Positions 1,557 to 22,484 of a DNA stretch of 49,937 nt are shown here, piece after piece. The translations under genes and the position numbers were made by a program. How positions within the stretch are numbered: the first letter of the stretch is position 1; each line of letters opens with the position of its first letter. The notes below the pieces were generated by a model, which had not been told where the DNA came from, did no database searches, and was given only the letters and a program-made list of their open reading frames with translations. The stretch is from a virus: IMG/VR virus record IMGVR_UViG_3300032020_000007, positions 1 to 49,937 of that record, one strand, 5' to 3'.

Positions 1557-2367
1557 AAACTGGCCTTATACAAAGTATATTATCGCCCCTGTAATCACAT
1601 TCAAGTTTGGAACAGTTATTACAGGTTATTTTATACCCCGCTCTACATTGCGGGCTTGGGTTGTCACAGGGCATTAAGTCATCAATTCCACAGCCGCAAT
1701 CTTCTCCGGCCAAACCGTCAAAACCTTTGATTTTTAGACATTCTTTAACAATTTCTTTTATAGTCATTTGTTTTCCCCATTGTTCCGCCATTGCATTGGC
1801 AATACCCTGAAAAGTCTTGCTCCGCAATCTTGCACGTTCTTTCGGAGGTAATTTGAGCGCATCAGCATACCACTTTGGCATAGACCTGCCGCTTGAATAC
1901 TTTACCTGCTCGCCTTTTCCTACGATATTTGTGGGGGTTAAGTTAGGCAGTCCTTTAAGCCATAAACAAGTTTTTTTGCTAAATGGTTCACCAAATTGAT
2001 AGGGATGTATTATTTGGTCGGGTTTCCTCCACACAGTTGACATAATCCCAACTGGACTCTCAATAGCAATTCGGGAACATTTGGCATTAGCAAAAAGCAT
2101 AAAAAAATCAATACCTTGTTGCTGCCGCCCATCCTTACGTTTCCTCTCAAACCAAGCCGCACCACTTGCGGCTAAATGTGTGCAGGGTGGAAAAGCAATT
2201 ATCATATCCCAGTTATTATTAAGCAGCGGGGAAACATCTTGTTGTAAATGCCATTCAGGATGACCCCCACTACAAGTTTCAATATCACAAGAATATGCTT
2301 CGTGGCCTAATTTCCTAAATTCATTTGTTACTACCTGTGATTCTTCACACGCCACAAGTATTTTCAT
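1546..2367 (-). CDS. DNA cytosine methyltransferase-like protein with Cys-rich C-terminus
   Basis: The SAM-binding start (MKILVACEESQ) and the FPPCTHL motif with the catalytic Cys of cytosine-5 methyltransferases near residue 62 are present, followed by an IESP motif with the expected catalytic Glu. After about residue 200 the protein changes to a Cys-rich tail (CGCG, PC, CxxC-like spacing) that probably binds zinc and may once have been a separate small protein. I chose the ATG at 2367 because AGAGG lies five bases upstream; a longer frame to 2430 has no such support. It overlaps the next methyltransferase by 23 bases. Likely role: protection of phage DNA from host restriction. Confidence 0.85.
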   Translation of the reverse strand: MKILVACEESQVVTNEFRKLGHEAYSCDIETCSGGHPEWHLQQDVSPLLNNNWDMIIAFPPCTHLAASGAAWFERKRKDGRQQQGIDFFMLFANAKCSRIAIESPVGIMSTVWRKPDQIIHPYQFGEPFSKKTCLWLKGLPNLTPTNIVGKGEQVKYSSGRSMPKWYADALKLPPKERARLRSKTFQGIANAMAEQWGKQMTIKEIVKECLKIKGFDGLAGEDCGCGIDDLMPCDNPSPQCRAGYKITCNNCSKLECDYRGDNILCIRPVYDA

Positions 2368-4423
2368 ACAAACCTCTAAACTCTTCAAGACGTTTATTGG
2401 CAAGAGCCACAAACTTTTCACTTGCATCAATCCCTACCCAATTCCTACCAAATTTCTCTGCTACGAGAGCCGTAGTGCCACTGCCCATAAAGGAGTCAAG
2501 GACTATACCCTCCACAGGAGACCCCGCCAATATACAGGGCTCTATCAAGTCAGGTGGATAGGAATTACCTGTTATTATTATGTTCCCTTTTCTTCTTGCA
2601 ATAAATGTTCCTGAAGGAGTTTCTGGACACCATACTATTCCCTGATATGATATGGATTTAACATTTAATTTTTTGCTTGCTGTTTTTCTGGCACTCGTTG
2701 TTTTCCGGTTTTTTACATATAAATGAAAAATGTTACGGCCTTTTTGCAAGCTCTTCTTAACACTGCTTCCTGTTTTGAAAATGAGGGCTTGAAGAATGTC
2801 AACAGTCTCCTCATTTTTTTGCATAACTACATAAGTGCCGTTTGGGTGAATCGAGCCGTCCCCAGCAACGAACCCTTTGATAAACCTTTTAAGTGCTTTT
2901 TTTGTCCATCCAAGCATTTGCCAGGAAGGTCTCTTGTTCGGTAAAAGATTAAAAATTCTTTTTGCGTTTATCCAGCTAATTGTAAAGCAAGCCATCTCAT
3001 AAATGCCAGTTTCACGCTGCCGTCGCACAATCCGTTTGGTATAATCAAGTTTTTCTTTACGAAAAAGGCGCTCAATTCTTTGAACTTTTTTTCTATTTCT
3101 CGTTAAAGATTGATAGACTTTAATGCTATATTTAGCATAATATCCTTCCGCAGCTATCCAACCGAGAATTTCACACATATCCAAAGATGGCTCATAAGAG
3201 AACCCATAGCTCCCCTTTTCCCATTCTGCACAAACAGGAAATCTATCCGCCGAATTTATGTTTTGTATTTCTTTGAAATAAAAATCCGACCACTCCTGTC
3301 GTTTTGCTTGCCATTTTCTACACACGGCTTTATGTTCCTGGGTATAAATAAAATTTGAGTTGGGATTTAATGTTTCTATGAGACAACCTTTATACTTGTA
3401 TGTATGGATATGGTTCAGTCTCTCAAATTGTAGTTTTTTGGAGGACAAGCTGAAAGTGCCAATACTCTCACCGGTAACAAGTTCGTTGTATCTTTTCCAA
3501 CCACTTAAAGTTAAACATTCTGTGTCAGCACTCACGCAGGAGAAGTGGCCTTTTGCACCAGATTTAACTGTAACAACCCAGACATCTCTCTTATTGCGTT
3601 TCAGATAGACTTTGACTTCAGGAATTTTGGAAGTATTGTATATGCCTGATGGACCTCCGGGCAGTATGCCAGAATCAAGTATAGCTTTGCGTCCTCTGAA
3701 TCTACGACCTGTTAGAGACTCTTGGTCAACACACGGCTCTTTTATAGCCTCGTTGTCGTAGTAATACTTCTTGTTCTTGGCCAGCATAAAAATATATTCG
3801 TGAGCGGTCGTGCATCTGTCTCTGACAGAGGAAGGCATCGGATTGGGTTTCAACCATATAATATCCTGGCGAAGGTACCATCCATCTGCACGGAGAGCAA
3901 AGGCAACCATCCAGGGGATTCCTATAAGGTCTTTTTGTTTTAAGTTTCCTTGTAATTTTCCGGCATAACTATCCCCCAGATTAAGCCAAAGTGTGCCCTG
4001 TGGTTTGAGAACTCGCCTAACCTCACGGAATATCCCTACAAGGTGCTGGACGTATAATTCAGGGCTTGGTTCAAGACCAAGTTGACCGAGCCAAACACCA
4101 CATTTTTGGCAGAATTGACCAGAATGAGGTTTTACTCTTGCTAACTGATAAATAATCTCATCTGGCCGTCCTTTTTGGCTAAAGCCGGTAGGAACTTTAT
4201 TGCCTGCCTGTTGACCACAAAACGGCTGTTTTTCCCCCCATTCGTGCCTGCAATCTGCCTGGCCTTCCCATCCCCAGACTATTGGCTCACAGGGGTTAGA
4301 CCTCAAACCATAATAGGGTGGGGAGCAAACACACATATCAACACTTTCAGCAGGCCAGTTTTTTAAGACTTCTCTGGCATCACCTTGCACAATTTGATTT
4401 ATTGGTAATTCAACCATATACAT
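2345..4423 (-). CDS. Amino DNA methyltransferase (N4-C/N6-A type) interrupted by an intein
   Basis: The host protein has the class beta order: catalytic SPPYY at residues 34-38 near the N-terminus and the SAM-binding FMGSGTT motif near residue 645 at the C-terminus. Between them a 325-residue intein (residues 296-620) sits after HFS and before SYPPDL, a conserved part of this family. Removing it gives a normal-sized enzyme of about 367 residues. A CxxC/HxxxxC cluster around residues 60-110 may bind zinc. I chose the ATG at 4423 because GGAG is nine bases upstream; a GTG at 4444 would add seven residues. Predicted role: sequence-specific DNA methylation, against host restriction. Confidence 0.9.
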   Translation of the reverse strand: MYMVELPINQIVQGDAREVLKNWPAESVDMCVCSPPYYGLRSNPCEPIVWGWEGQADCRHEWGEKQPFCGQQAGNKVPTGFSQKGRPDEIIYQLARVKPHSGQFCQKCGVWLGQLGLEPSPELYVQHLVGIFREVRRVLKPQGTLWLNLGDSYAGKLQGNLKQKDLIGIPWMVAFALRADGWYLRQDIIWLKPNPMPSSVRDRCTTAHEYIFMLAKNKKYYYDNEAIKEPCVDQESLTGRRFRGRKAILDSGILPGGPSGIYNTSKIPEVKVYLKRNKRDVWVVTVKSGAKGHFSCVSADTECLTLSGWKRYNELVTGESIGTFSLSSKKLQFERLNHIHTYKYKGCLIETLNPNSNFIYTQEHKAVCRKWQAKRQEWSDFYFKEIQNINSADRFPVCAEWEKGSYGFSYEPSLDMCEILGWIAAEGYYAKYSIKVYQSLTRNRKKVQRIERLFRKEKLDYTKRIVRRQRETGIYEMACFTISWINAKRIFNLLPNKRPSWQMLGWTKKALKRFIKGFVAGDGSIHPNGTYVVMQKNEETVDILQALIFKTGSSVKKSLQKGRNIFHLYVKNRKTTSARKTASKKLNVKSISYQGIVWCPETPSGTFIARRKGNIIITGNSYPPDLIEPCILAGSPVEGIVLDSFMGSGTTALVAEKFGRNWVGIDASEKFVALANKRLEEFRGLYENTCGV
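2564..3538 (-). mobile_element. Intein with LAGLIDADG homing endonuclease
   Basis: All splicing blocks are readable. Block A starts CVSADTECLTL with the nucleophile Cys. Block B contains TQEH (the TxxH motif). The end is IIITGN, followed by Ser as the +1 extein nucleophile. The penultimate residue is Gly, where His is most common. Between the splicing parts are two LAGLIDADG motifs, LGWIAAEG (about residues 420-427 of the precursor) and GFVAGDG (about 517-523), so this is a full-length inteinassociated homing endonuclease. There is no frameshift. It should excise after translation and may home into intein-less alleles. Confidence 0.93.
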
Positions 4424-4535
4424 AAATGTTATCTCCAGGCCCACTTGAATAAGTTAGTTTGCCAAGTATGTCCTGCCAACCTTTATTTTTAACTCTTTTT
4501 TGCCTTGTCTTTTTTCTCTTTTTTACCTTTTTCAT
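4410..4535 (-). CDS. Small basic protein (41 aa)
   Basis: The ATG at 4535 overlaps the stop of the upstream 61-residue gene in an ATGA pair, and the frame ends inside the start of the methyltransferase gene. The first 18 residues are almost all Lys/Arg; the rest (WQDILGKLTYSSGPG) looks like ordinary protein. The coupled position on both sides supports a real gene. Function is unknown; the basic N-terminus could bind nucleic acid. Confidence 0.5.
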   Translation of the reverse strand: MKKVKKRKKTRQKRVKNKGWQDILGKLTYSSGPGDNIYVYG

Positions 4536-17780: not shown

Positions 17781-17943
17781 AAAGAACAAGGATTCAAGGG
17801 AGTTTCGGAGAAGAGAAGACCGTTGGGAAAATAACGGGTATGCTTTCTGTAACGATTGTTTGAAAAAACAAGTTCGGGACGTTGACTGGCCGCCAGAAAA
17901 CAAACGTGGAGGTGGGTTACTTTTTGGGGGATATTGTGAATAA
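17761..17943 (+). CDS. Zinc-ribbon protein (60 aa)
   Basis: CQACKKNKDSREF and, 25 residues later, CNDCLKKQ form a zinc ribbon. It overlaps the end of the HNH gene by 20 bases. Its own stop overlaps the GTG start proposed for the small terminase. Function is unknown. Confidence 0.7.
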   Translation: MICQACKKNKDSREFRRREDRWENNGYAFCNDCLKKQVRDVDWPPENKRGGGLLFGGYCE

Positions 17944-18493
17944 AGCGGACCAAGTAAAGAAAACCAAAGAAGGAGTTGTATCCCTAAAAAAGCATAGGAA
18001 GTTTTCCCCCGAACTTTTGCCTGTTATTCAGAATTTGCTTGGATTAGGTTTATCTGAAGCGGATATAGGAATTGTGGTGGGTTATTCAGGAAAATCTCCC
18101 AAAAATTTCCTAAAGAATCTGAAACAAAACAATCAAGATGTTCGAGAAGCGTGCGAAGTTGGCAAAAAACTGGCAAACGTCTATCTTGTGGCTACGGCAT
18201 TTAAGGCGGCGACTGGGGCAGGATTTGAGGAAAGAGAGACGGTTTATAGCGATAGTGATATTTTAGGGAATAAATTAGAAGAACCTATCCCCATTAGGAC
18301 GAAAGTAAAAACAAGATATGTTCCTGATACTGCTATTCTTGCAAAATTACTCGAAACAAGGATGCCACAATACTTTTCCGGCACGAAGAAAACGCAATCA
18401 GAATCTATAAATGTTGACGTCGAAGGCAAGATAAGTGAGTTATTTGAGATGTTGCCGGGCCGGAAGCGTGTTGAATCAAAGGAGATAAAATGA
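17936..18493 (+). CDS. terS: Terminase small subunit (probable)
   Basis: The protein has an N-terminal helix-turn-helix-like section (GLSEADIGIVVGYS), a central helical part (VATAFKAATGAG) and a mixed C-terminus, the usual build of DNA-recognising small terminases, and lies just before the large subunit. I chose the GTG at 17936 because GGGGG stands five bases upstream; the TTG at 17882 would make it longer without such support. The stop overlaps the next start by ATGA. Confidence 0.75.
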   Translation: MNKADQVKKTKEGVVSLKKHRKFSPELLPVIQNLLGLGLSEADIGIVVGYSGKSPKNFLKNLKQNNQDVREACEVGKKLANVYLVATAFKAATGAGFEERETVYSDSDILGNKLEEPIPIRTKVKTRYVPDTAILAKLLETRMPQYFSGTKKTQSESINVDVEGKISELFEMLPGRKRVESKEIK

Positions 18494-18711
18494 GCCTTCC
18501 GGCAGCGGCAGAGAAATTATTGGACGTTTTATTGTATAAAGTTGGGCAGGATGTTGGTTTTTACGGCATCTCTGGGAAGATAACTGCGATTGTGATTACA
18601 CCAGAAGAGATTAAGTATGAAGTTTGTTACAACAGGGAGGATACTCTTCAGAAGTGTGATGTGCACGAGTGGGAAATGCAACCAAAAAGTTCTGTTGGAT
18701 TTAATAAATGA
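18490..18711 (+). CDS. Small hypothetical protein, beta-rich (73 aa)
   Basis: After a short helix the sequence alternates like a small SH3-type barrel (DVGFYGISGKITAIVI, then EVCYNREDTLQ). It lies between the terminase subunits with ATGA overlaps at both ends. Function is unknown; it may be a packaging accessory or a virion part. Confidence 0.7.
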   Translation: MSLPAAAEKLLDVLLYKVGQDVGFYGISGKITAIVITPEEIKYEVCYNREDTLQKCDVHEWEMQPKSSVGFNK

Positions 18712-19619
18712 ATTTTGAGACTCTTACAGGAAAAGAGTTTTTTGCTTTGATTCCGACAGGGTTAGAAGACAATATACGATTCCGTATAGATTTTCATAAA
18801 CTGGCGAGTCAAAGTAAAGACCTGCAACAATGGTTTCTGGAAACGTGTAGAGATTATCTGCCAGTGATGTTCAATGCTCTCTTTTGGACGCTGAATCCCC
18901 GAAAACCGCCGAGTGAGAGTTTGAAGCCGTTTATTTTGCGGCCAAAACAGATTTTTGCTGTTGAGAAGATAGACCAATGTATTAAAATCGGTAAGGATGT
19001 TGGGATAGATAAAGCAAGAGAGGAGGGTGCAACAGAGATTGTTTCCAAGATTTATGCCGCACATTCGATTTTATACAAAAAGAGAAATTTTATTGTTGGC
19101 TCACGAACAAAAAAATTAGTAGATACAATAGGAGACGATTATACAATTTTTGCCAAGATAGATAATGCTTTTGAGTATTTGCCGTCTTGGATGGGATTAA
19201 ATGTCAACAACGGGTCTATTTATCGTAAAGATATGCTTCTTCGAGTTGTTCCCAACAGTTCTACAATAAATGGTGAAACTACAAATGAGAGTTTTAGCGC
19301 TGGAAGTCGTGGGACTTCAATGCTTCTTGATGAATTTGGGCGAGTGGATAAGTATATTGCTGATTCGATAGAAGGGTCTATTCACGATGTTACGGATTGT
19401 GTGATTTACAACTCGACTCACTGGCTGGGGTTGAACCATACTTTTAATCAAGTTTTACATCGGCCAGGATTGGAAATAATAACCTTTGATTGGTGGGAAA
19501 ATCCTGATGGGAAGAATCAAGGGCTTTATACGAGTAATTCGCCTGGTGAAGTAGAGTTGATTGATATTGAGTATTATCAGAAGAATTACCCAGAATTATT
19601 AAAATATGCGGAGTCTTGA
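18708..19619 (+). CDS. terL: Terminase large subunit, ATPase part (ends at in-frame UGA)
   Basis: The ATPase motifs are readable: an adenine-binding Q motif (RPKQ, residue 81), a deviant Walker A in AREEGATE (103-110), Walker B MLLDEFGR (205-212) and a coupling motif YNSTHW. At residue 304 the frame meets UGA and continues at once, in the same frame, as the nuclease part (19620-20705). Other large terminases carry both parts on one chain. The UGA may be a nonsense mutation, a readthrough site or the boundary of a real split gene. Confidence 0.9.
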   Translation: MNFETLTGKEFFALIPTGLEDNIRFRIDFHKLASQSKDLQQWFLETCRDYLPVMFNALFWTLNPRKPPSESLKPFILRPKQIFAVEKIDQCIKIGKDVGIDKAREEGATEIVSKIYAAHSILYKKRNFIVGSRTKKLVDTIGDDYTIFAKIDNAFEYLPSWMGLNVNNGSIYRKDMLLRVVPNSSTINGETTNESFSAGSRGTSMLLDEFGRVDKYIADSIEGSIHDVTDCVIYNSTHWLGLNHTFNQVLHRPGLEIITFDWWENPDGKNQGLYTSNSPGEVELIDIEYYQKNYPELLKYAES

Positions 19620-20705
19620 TTGGGAATAATTCTTAAACAAGAAGATTTGCCGGAAAAGTATCAATCTTTGTTTGTTTGGGACGGTTGTAAAAATTTGCCA
19701 GCAGACGCATCAAGGCGAGTTCGTAGCCCCTGGCACGATATTGAGGAAAAGAAAAGAGGGAAACGAGATTTTCTTTGTAATGTTTGGCGGACACCAATAG
19801 GCAGTTCTGACGTAGTATTTGATGTTGCTGTTCTTACTACTATAAAAGAGAAGTTTATTAGGCCGCCAGATTTTGCCGGAGAGGTTGTTTTTGACCGTTT
19901 GTCAAGCGGGAAGGTTGATACTGAAGTTATTAAGTTCTGGCCTGGGTTGGGGCAGAAACGGCTTAAATGGTGGGGGCAGTTAAAAAATGGCAGGCCAAGT
20001 CAATTTCATAATTACATAATTGCCAGTGATATTTCTTGGGGACTTGGCAGTTCCAATTCTGTTGCAGAGTTTTACGATGTTAATACAATGGAACAAGTTG
20101 GTGAGTGGGCCTGCCCAAACACCAAACCAGAAGATTTTGCTGATTTAGTTGTTGCCTCTGCTCATTGGGTTGGTGGTTGCCGGAAACCACTTTTAATTTG
20201 GGAAAATAATGGTGGGCAAGGGGTAAATTTTGGCAATAGAATTAAATGGCTGGGATATTCAAATGTTTATGTTCAAACAAGAGAGAATGAAAAATCCCGA
20301 AAGAAAGGAAAGAAACTTGGCTGGCGGTCTAATACACAAAGTAAACCGGATTTGCTTCAAGAGTTAAGTATTGCTTTGACGGAGGGGATTAAAGAGAAAA
20401 AGAATTATAAAGCAATTATAATTCATAGTAAGGACTTACTTGATGAATTGTTTGACTATATTTTTGCGGAGAGGGGGAAGGACGCAGAACTATCAAGTAA
20501 GATGGATGAAGGGACGGGAGCAAGAGAAAGACACGGAGACAGGGTAATTGCGGCAGGATTGTGTATATTGGGAACAAGAGACCAACAAAAAGGAGAAGGC
20601 GAAAGATTTACATCTATACCCGCAAATAGTTTTTTGGGACGAATGAATCGGTGGTTAGATGAACAAGAGGAAATTCAACGAACTTCAAAAACTTGGATGT
20701 ATTAA
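19620..20705 (+). CDS. terL: Terminase large subunit, nuclease part
   Basis: The frame directly continues the ATPase part after UGA. It shows the RNase H-like nuclease: IIASDISWG (first acidic residue), LLIWENNGG and HGDRVIAAG near the end. The first codon after the stop is TTG, with GGAG six bases before it, so a separate start on the same mRNA is possible. It ends just before the portal gene. Function: cutting concatemers during DNA packaging. Confidence 0.88.
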   Translation: MGIILKQEDLPEKYQSLFVWDGCKNLPADASRRVRSPWHDIEEKKRGKRDFLCNVWRTPIGSSDVVFDVAVLTTIKEKFIRPPDFAGEVVFDRLSSGKVDTEVIKFWPGLGQKRLKWWGQLKNGRPSQFHNYIIASDISWGLGSSNSVAEFYDVNTMEQVGEWACPNTKPEDFADLVVASAHWVGGCRKPLLIWENNGGQGVNFGNRIKWLGYSNVYVQTRENEKSRKKGKKLGWRSNTQSKPDLLQELSIALTEGIKEKKNYKAIIIHSKDLLDELFDYIFAERGKDAELSSKMDEGTGARERHGDRVIAAGLCILGTRDQQKGEGERFTSIPANSFLGRMNRWLDEQEEIQRTSKTWMY

Positions 20706-22484
20706 ATGATAGAAAATGCTAATAAAATAATTGATGAGAAAAACATCTCACAGAGATATGAGGCGCGTCTTCAGACACTTGCTGCGGCTTGGGGCAAAAA
20801 ATGGGAAGGTGCTTTAGACCATACACAGCGATTAACAAGATTGTGGGCGTCCGGTTATTTTGATAAAGGATATGCCCGATGGCATTTAATTAACTTAATG
20901 AATCGTGGTGTATCAACTGTTGTATCTTATTTGTGTGAAGGCAATCCAAAAGTATTAGTAGAACCAAAAGCACCGAAATTACGTTACTATGCCCGTGCAA
21001 GACAATTAGTTTTGAATCATCTTATTGAACAAAATAATTTTGCTGATGAGGTATTTATTCCTGGTGCAACGGCGTCAATGTTTGGTATGGCCATTGCACG
21101 AACATTTTTTGAATATGATAGAATTGTGGATTATAAAAATGAACAAATAAAAGTGGGTATTCCAAAAGTTGTAATTATAGAACCTTGTGATTATATTGGA
21201 GACCCATCAGCAAAACGTCAAAAGGATTTTGCAATAGAAGGAGATATTTATAAATTACCGACAGAATATGCAAAAGATTTATTTGGCAATAAATATGCTG
21301 ATTTTATTCAACCAGATTGTAAATTAGTTACTAAATATAGTAACGAAGAGATTGTGGCAAAGGCAGGTTCTTTTGATTTTAACCGTCTTGCAGAAGAAGA
21401 GTATAGCACTTTTATTGATATTTACCTCAAAAAAGAAAAAACGATTGTAACTATTATGCCTATGGGGCATAAAGCTGTAATTTTACGAGAAATAGAGTGG
21501 GATGGGCCTGGTGATTCACCTTATGACAAACTTGGGTATAAATATCTGCCAGGGATACCAATTCCGCTGCCACCGGCCTGGGACTGGTATGACCTTGATG
21601 TAACAATGAATATAATGGCACAAACAGCAAGGATTCAAGCTGAATCTCAAAAGAATTTAATTGTTGCAGACGCAGACGCAAAAGATGCGGCTGAAACAGC
21701 CCTTAAAAACAAGAATATGAATGTTGTAATTGCTCACGGAATGGACGCTGTTAAAACATTTTCTTTTGGGGGGGTTTCTCCACAGAATTATCAATGGATG
21801 GCTTTTGCCGAAACTGAATTTACTAAATCTGGAGTACCGGCAGAAGTTATGAGAGGGACGGGGGCAGAGGCAAATACACTTGGGCAAGAACAGCTTATAT
21901 TTGCAAATGCAAGTCGGATTGTTAATAATTTTTATACAAGATTTCATCAATGGATGACATCTATTTTGAATAAGTGGTCTTGGGCGGTGGGACAGACGCC
22001 TAATACCTATATAGAGATTTTAGATACAGTTAAAATTCCTGGTCTTAATGACTATGAAATGCCGGTATATTTTACAAGCAAAGAAAAATCTGCCGAGTTT
22101 GAAAGTTTTTTGTTAAAAGTAATTCCATATAGCACACAAAGAACTACTCCTGAATTGATGTATCAGAGATTATATCAACTTATGACGGCTTGGATGATTC
22201 CGACTATGCAGTTGCGTATGCAGCAAGGTTCTTCTATTGATTTTCCAGTGGTTGATAAACTACTTGCTGATTATGGGGGGATTGAAAGTTTTCAATTATG
22301 GTATAAGAGTGTTTTGCCAAATGAATCCCCCGATGTTGATTTTGTTATGAAAAGTAATAAAGGACAGGGAAATGATAAGGCCGGAGCGACATTGGCAAGC
22401 AGACAGGCGAATTTGCAGCAACAACAAGAAAGAACGCAGCCAACAGGCCCGATGGTGTTACCAGAACAAGAAAGTGTAAAATGA
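20706..22484 (+). CDS. Portal protein
   Basis: A 592-residue protein directly after the large terminase. It has the expected mixed build with a long helical middle (MNIMAQTARIQAES, then a Gly-rich part, then FAETEFTKSGVPAEVMRGTG) and a Gln-rich C-terminus. The SGVP-x-EVMRG segment is typical of portal proteins of podoviral type. It forms the ring through which DNA enters and leaves the capsid. Confidence 0.85.
   Translation: MIENANKIIDEKNISQRYEARLQTLAAAWGKKWEGALDHTQRLTRLWASGYFDKGYARWHLINLMNRGVSTVVSYLCEGNPKVLVEPKAPKLRYYARARQLVLNHLIEQNNFADEVFIPGATASMFGMAIARTFFEYDRIVDYKNEQIKVGIPKVVIIEPCDYIGDPSAKRQKDFAIEGDIYKLPTEYAKDLFGNKYADFIQPDCKLVTKYSNEEIVAKAGSFDFNRLAEEEYSTFIDIYLKKEKTIVTIMPMGHKAVILREIEWDGPGDSPYDKLGYKYLPGIPIPLPPAWDWYDLDVTMNIMAQTARIQAESQKNLIVADADAKDAAETALKNKNMNVVIAHGMDAVKTFSFGGVSPQNYQWMAFAETEFTKSGVPAEVMRGTGAEANTLGQEQLIFANASRIVNNFYTRFHQWMTSILNKWSWAVGQTPNTYIEILDTVKIPGLNDYEMPVYFTSKEKSAEFESFLLKVIPYSTQRTTPELMYQRLYQLMTAWMIPTMQLRMQQGSSIDFPVVDKLLADYGGIESFQLWYKSVLPNESPDVDFVMKSNKGQGNDKAGATLASRQANLQQQQERTQPTGPMVLPEQESVK

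Follow-up and report, generated by a model that had tools for sequence, protein, structure and literature searches.

Packaging motors are thought to convert ATP hydrolysis into DNA movement by means of linked ATPase and nuclease domains. When the large terminase of phage T4, gp17, is split at the linker, the ATPase and nuclease activities are reported to be retained and translocation to be lost (available parts of PMC3012670 and PMC9958956). A naturally split large terminase gene (terL) is surprising because cutting gp17 in the laboratory stops DNA movement. The window, by which we mean the whole 49,937-nucleotide stretch of viral DNA analyzed here, carries such a gene.

The Break in terL

The terL region of the window contains the following features.

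17882..18493, plus strand: terS (small terminase subunit), 5′ of terL (phrog_309, E 1.8e-7)
18490..18711, plus strand: 73-residue ORF in the gap between terS and terL, with an ATGA overlap with each neighbor
18708..19619, plus strand: terL-A, 303 residues, ATG start, predicted first polypeptide with the ATPase core (from translation and the match to the T4 gp17 ATPase)
19610..19613, plus strand: GGAG, a Shine–Dalgarno-like core (from the sequence)
19617..19619, plus strand: in-frame TGA that closes terL-A (from the sequence)
19620..20705, plus strand: terL-B, predicted second polypeptide, 361 residues, TTG start, same frame as terL-A (from translation and fold)
20706..22484, plus strand: portal-like gene directly 3′ of terL-B, TAA then ATG (from position and weak matches)

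The frame at 18708–20702 runs for 665 positions, and its sole stop is the TGA at position 304. Translation bears out the initial annotation in its description of a terL split by one in-frame TGA into ORFs of 303 and 361 codons in the same frame, and the restart signal that it pointed to is also present, with GGAG six bases 5′ of a TTG, a weak start codon, that directly follows the TGA. Other contacts around terL are of the coupled type (ATGA at 18490 and 18708, TAA-ATG at 20706), and Shine–Dalgarno cores lie within 20 nt upstream of 12 of the 23 plus-strand ORFs checked in the window. The setting is that of a large terminase gene, terS-like on the 5′ side and portal-like on the 3′ side, the portal-like gene having weak matches (Pfam P22_portal, E 0.032, under the cut-off; phrog_18409, “minor tail protein”, E 6.5e-4).

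Across codons 31–635 of the terL frame, 228 codons are a stop or lie one base from a stop. Eleven of these are directly followed by ATG, GTG, or TTG, and one, the real TGA, has both an adjoining start and a Shine–Dalgarno core within 14 nt. The stop also falls within a 7-codon target, out of 664 codons, that matches the first-half ends of the 13 other split loci described below. At the level of sequence, a TGA break at this point is confirmed as beyond chance, the base itself being known from one assembled record; a second copy of the junction was looked for in IMG/VR, and none was found.

One frame on both sides of the TGA would also suit a UGA that some ribosomes read through, or that is recoded as selenocysteine or by a suppressor tRNA, to give a fused working terminase, and crAss-like phages are reported to pass late-gene stops with suppressor tRNAs (available part of PMC7886860). 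In the window, however, TGA closes 15 of 40 hand-picked ORFs (TAA 21, TAG 4), no tRNA genes were found in a record that may be incomplete, and the RNA fold around the TGA is not unusual (z 0.21). No recoding signal, decoding of UGA as a residue, or suppressor tRNA was found there, although a suppressor could come from the host or from DNA missing from the record; UGA holds as an ordinary stop in this virus and genome-wide recoding of UGA as unlikely, as had been annotated. The search for a promoter or terminator at the break gave nothing above chance.

Identity and Domain Layout of the Two Halves

Sequence searches of Pfam, PHROGs, NCBIfam, and PDB recognized neither half of terL, and a DNA-level search of phage records gave no match. 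The identity of the gene comes from fold comparison and from tblastn, in which the first half matched annotated phage TerL genes. The tblastn search with terL-A matched 112 phage records; of the 20 matches listed, 19 are annotated as terminase and one as hypothetical protein. In the same way terL-B matched two records, one of them annotated as terminase large subunit. The fused chain, with the stop read through, was modeled with AlphaFold2 from 69 aligned sequences (pLDDT 90.4, pTM 0.76), and the model finds its top PDB matches in T4 gp17 (Foldseek E 3.7e-19; 3cpe, 2o0j) and in further large terminases. The T4 gp17 ATPase domain, residues 58–360, superimposes on residues 17–367 of the fused model (VIA Z 23.8, rmsd 3.4 over 264), and the nuclease domains start at fused-model residue 364–368 (Z 20–23, rmsd about 2).

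Because the ATPase match spans residues 17–367 and the nuclease starts later, the TGA at 304 cuts within the ATPase domain; residue 304 lies in a loop, 301–306, of the fused model. The UGA had initially been taken to separate the ATPase from the nuclease, a placement that the model corrects: on the modeled fold, the last ~60 ATPase residues sit on terL-B, ahead of the nuclease. The T4 residues that match the start of terL-B belong to what we take to be gp17 subdomain II. When terL-B is modeled alone, a confident nuclease is obtained from residue about 60 (T4 359–562; Z 23.5, rmsd 2.1 over 198), residues 1–70 fall to pLDDT 66–84, and a strand of the fused model is lost.

Across the 69 sequences, residues K102, R104, G107, D208, and E209 of terL-A are invariant and S236-T237 are conserved; we take K102xR104xxG107 to be a Walker A-like motif and D208-E209 a Walker B-like motif. 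In the second half, D441 and D611 (fused-chain numbering) are invariant and E499 is nearly invariant in the same alignment. These residues, D137, D307, and E195 of terL-B, presumably form the acidic triad of an RNase H-fold nuclease. The P-loop ATPase core and the RNase H-fold nuclease with its acidic triad that characterize TerL are both found here, on two predicted polypeptides rather than on one, and likewise in the 13 other split loci. On this modeling, the two halves together are a T4 gp17-like large terminase, in agreement with the initial annotation as a large terminase; gp17, which the fused model matches most closely in fold, is itself one chain.

Relatives Broken at the Same Junction

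Protein-based scans of IMG/VR, together with one scan of prokaryote genomes, gave 106 distinct loci with both halves, the window included, from among the matches listed (the best 80 of one scan, the best 80 of 226 of another, and a further scan seeded with split loci). The bacterial and archaeal genome scan returned three distant loci that are uninformative on the split. The frame through terL is unbroken in 88 of the 106 loci and not continuous in 18, and 14 of the latter, including the window, are broken at this junction. A search for related phages with the same split, which had been named as a check when the break was first noticed, thus returns 13 other loci broken at the same point. The first half ends 17–23 residues past one conserved Asp in all 14 split loci (18 in the window), and a fixed break point with unbroken orthologues in close relatives is a property of genes in pieces. 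The four other interrupted loci are L042 (a stop in the first half), L066 (contig edge), and L119 and L128 (frame broken within the nuclease). The L042 stop, an in-frame TAA at 1482–1484, lies in the ATPase part, off the usual break and just before TTNENF, and may be a mutation, an error, or another split.

The break takes the following forms in the 14 split loci and in duplicates of them.

Window: TGA-TTG, stop then start, in one frame
L021: TAA-AAA-ATG, an in-frame TAA with ATG three bases on and no cassette, much like the window
L002, L093: overlapping frames with an internal ATG
L019: 94-base spacer in the break
L005/L006: Endonuclease VII-type gene in the break (Endonuclease_7, Pfam E 6.9e-23)
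L136: a different HNH gene in the break, on a distant branch (phrog_2255, E 1.1e-37)
L028: DNA methyltransferase-like gene in the break, 1043–1618 (phrog_757, E 1.4e-53)
L013: small zinc-ribbon-like ORF in the break (weak Pfam matches only)
L025, L030, L056, L090: small ORFs in the break, no named family
L095: shorter small ORF in the break, no named family

In four splits (window, L021, L002, and L093) the inserted DNA amounts to 3 bases or fewer. Cassette ORFs share bases with the stop and start codons on either side of them, and in L056, L030, L028, and L090 the cassette ORF opens as TAATG on the first-half stop, behind GGAGACAGA. Three splits recur, each in two separate contigs at 99.6–99.9% DNA identity (L005/L006, L013/L094, and L019/L020). 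In L028, a further frame break divides the first half into two pieces. A free-standing endonuclease is found in the break of L005/L006 and L136; because none lies in the break of the window, its gene is likened to endonuclease-split genes by working only.

These forms bear on whether a fused protein could be made. In 12 of the 14 splits, the second half starts at an ATG of its own and lies either in another frame or past a cassette or spacer that contains further stops. Fusion by readthrough of a single stop is impossible in these 12 because the frame differs or the cassette or spacer stops intervene, and with the evidence from the window itself we regard readthrough or recoding of the UGA as very improbable. 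To make a fused product, the frame-shifted or cassette-bearing relatives would need splicing or frameshifting, and no intron family was found.

Splicing would be expected if the breaks of the relatives were self-splicing introns or inteins and that of the window a degenerate remnant. Such an origin draws some support from the endonuclease genes at the site in two relatives and from the group I introns that hit terL in other phages (available parts of PMC12363816 and PMC11878797). No Rfam family, however, reached its gathering score in 14 sources, and no intron family appeared at E up to 1 in a search of four junctions, which returned two sRNA models (E 0.18 and 0.45) that we take as chance. 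The four splits with almost no inserted DNA and the overlaps of the cassette ORFs with the flanking stop and start codons also argue against it, and neither intron RNA nor a splicing domain was found at the break of the window, where nothing is inserted. We regard an intron or intein origin as extremely improbable.

History of the Split

The phylogeny was examined with a tree of 72 rows that leaves out L066, L119, L128, and rows with less than 36% identity to the window in either half; L042 was kept and labeled as unbroken at the junction. Thirteen of the 14 split rows fall inside one 27-row clade (support 100/99) that also holds 14 unbroken rows. The initial annotation had expected a split terminase that still works to be uncommon, an expectation that is hard to reconcile with 13 split rows among the 27 of the window's clade, a share that comes from a sample seeded partly with split loci and gives no frequency in nature. 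The split/unbroken state changes 7 times on the tree, and at least 6 times by starred branches. A single clade of the 13 split rows was rejected (p-AU 5.9e-6).

Split rows have unbroken sisters (L004 to L005, L126 to L136), and the four nearest relatives of the window on the tree, L003, L163, L010, and L011, are all unbroken, so that its split is a separate state on its branch. To judge from the tree, the gene has repeatedly undergone fission, rejoining via recombination, or both; the counts are blind to gain versus loss. One loop is on this reading a recurrent fission site, and in several relatives it holds a homing-type endonuclease or another small gene.

The unbroken state of the nearest four relatives would also be expected if the TGA were an artifact of sequencing or assembly at one base, or a nonsense mutation newly arisen in a genome on its way to extinction, and terL were really one 665-codon gene. 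The record comes from a metagenome, a single base would be enough, and terL is broken elsewhere in the set (L042, L119, L128, and the second break in L028). An error or fresh mutation would, on the other hand, have had to fall within the 7-codon stretch that takes in the first-half ends of 13 other loci, and on the only one of 228 stop-near codons with an adjoining start and a Shine–Dalgarno core. The sequences flanking the break, PELLKYAES and LPEKYQSLF, are by eye nearer to the split ends elsewhere than to the linkers of the unbroken L003 and L010. We therefore consider this account of the TGA unlikely.

L013 has a history of its own. Its half-trees conflict, and halves derived from different parents at the break were considered and rejected: the switch in parentage comes some 80 residues past the start of the second half, close to the ATPase/nuclease border, with L056-like sequence before it and L021-like sequence after. 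At 582–610 of L013 (L094 has the same split), 29 bases running into the second-half start match the first-half tail of L090 at 28 of 29 positions (score 26; shuffled sequences reached 11 at most); no similar tail-repeat match was found in the other nine loci tested. This repeat, beside the zinc-ribbon-like ORF, is likely a recombination scar, not fully explained.

Selection on Both Halves and a Proposed Two-Chain Terminase

Among split relatives, dN/dS is 0.056–0.143 for the first half (15 of 15 pairs, six loci) and 0.052–0.099 for the second half (16 of 21 pairs, seven loci; the other 5 pairs are saturated), values that are rough because synonymous divergence is high. The second half is single copy per record in 16 of 16 records and the first half in 16 of 17, the seventeenth being L028, with its first half in two pieces. 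On these estimates, both halves are under purifying selection in the split relatives and are plainly kept, in indirect support of the notion that the pieces form an active enzyme.

The break, its fixed position and recurrence, the conservation of both halves in single copy, and the separate starts of the second halves are documented in the sequences, and they lead us to propose that TerL consists of two polypeptides, produced by a UGA stop and a UUG restart, and that the chains associate into one motor subunit. We consider this proposal probable. The ribosome would finish terL-A at the UGA, and GGAG and the adjoining UUG would help it to restart at once and make terL-B. TerL-A would bring the ATP-binding core, and one working motor subunit would form from TerL-A and TerL-B through non-covalent contacts, most likely those that complete the ATPase domain. 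We infer the restart of translation, the assembly of the chains, and their function, as well as the event that broke the gene in the window.

Against the two-chain terminase stand the unbroken nearest relatives, the single copy of the junction in IMG/VR, the weakness of TTG as a start, and the result with split T4 gp17. The last of these may be taken either as a warning that a split motor is impaired or as the reason for interest in this one, and the conservation of both halves favors the latter.

We also lean, by a little, toward a wider reading of the relatives, in which this phage lineage would have an obligate two-chain motor subunit produced by repeated fission in the ATPase domain. A chain with the ATP-binding core and a chain with the lid and the nuclease would assemble into each motor subunit, and small genes, endonucleases and a methyltransferase among them, would have come to use the break as a landing site. 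The covalent link, considered essential on the strength of T4, would be either dispensable or replaced by a strong interface. If the motor is indeed naturally cut inside the ATPase domain and under selection, the role of the covalent link becomes directly testable, and in a two-chain system each half would be open to labeling, mutation, and titration. The loci also set stages side by side: an unbroken gene, a bare stop, an overlap, a spacer, an endonuclease insert, and other cargo.

Comparison with Known Systems

By analogy, the closest systems in mechanism are nrdA/mobE and 43A/43B, both described in the available part of PMC2988022. In Aeromonas phage Aeh1, nrdA is split by mobE. As in that case, an essential enzyme gene has become two coding regions with both pieces kept, and an HNH endonuclease gene lies in the break of some terL relatives (L005/L006, L136); the UAAUG-type stop/start overlaps in the terL relatives resemble the UAAUGA overlap of T4 nrdA/mobE. 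Unlike Aeh1 nrdA, the enzyme here is a packaging motor, four loci (window, L021, L002, and L093) have no endonuclease at the junction, the split recurs on several branches, and assembly is predicted. In Aeromonas phages 25 and 44RR, the polymerase is split into gp43A and gp43B, with an endonuclease or an untranslated spacer in the break, much as one terL split holds an endonuclease (L005) and another a spacer (L019). The enzyme is a different one, and co-purification and activity are reported for gp43A/gp43B, whereas assembly of the split TerL is predicted.

Interruptions of terL itself are in print. Group I introns are reported in the Jug phages (PMC12363816) and in Bastillevirinae (PMC11878797), and an intein in Mic1 (PMC7156551); intron or intein interruption of terL also appears in PMC7886860. 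In the available parts of these papers, the gene is interrupted, as it is here, and nuclease genes or domains are found at the site, as in some relatives of the window. There, RNA or protein splicing rejoins the parts, whereas no intron signal is found at the break here. No terminase in two pieces without splicing was found in the open-licence PMC literature, a weak absence, as subscription journals lie mostly outside it. Among the papers found, terL is interrupted in print only by an intron or an intein, and a two-piece terL adds the terminase to the phage enzymes in pieces.

Elsewhere in the window, at 2345–4444 on the minus strand, a 699-residue DNA methyltransferase ORF has its methylase parts at about residues 12–301 and 625–691. 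Between them lies a LAGLIDADG-containing stretch with the look of an intein, its end motifs having been judged by eye.
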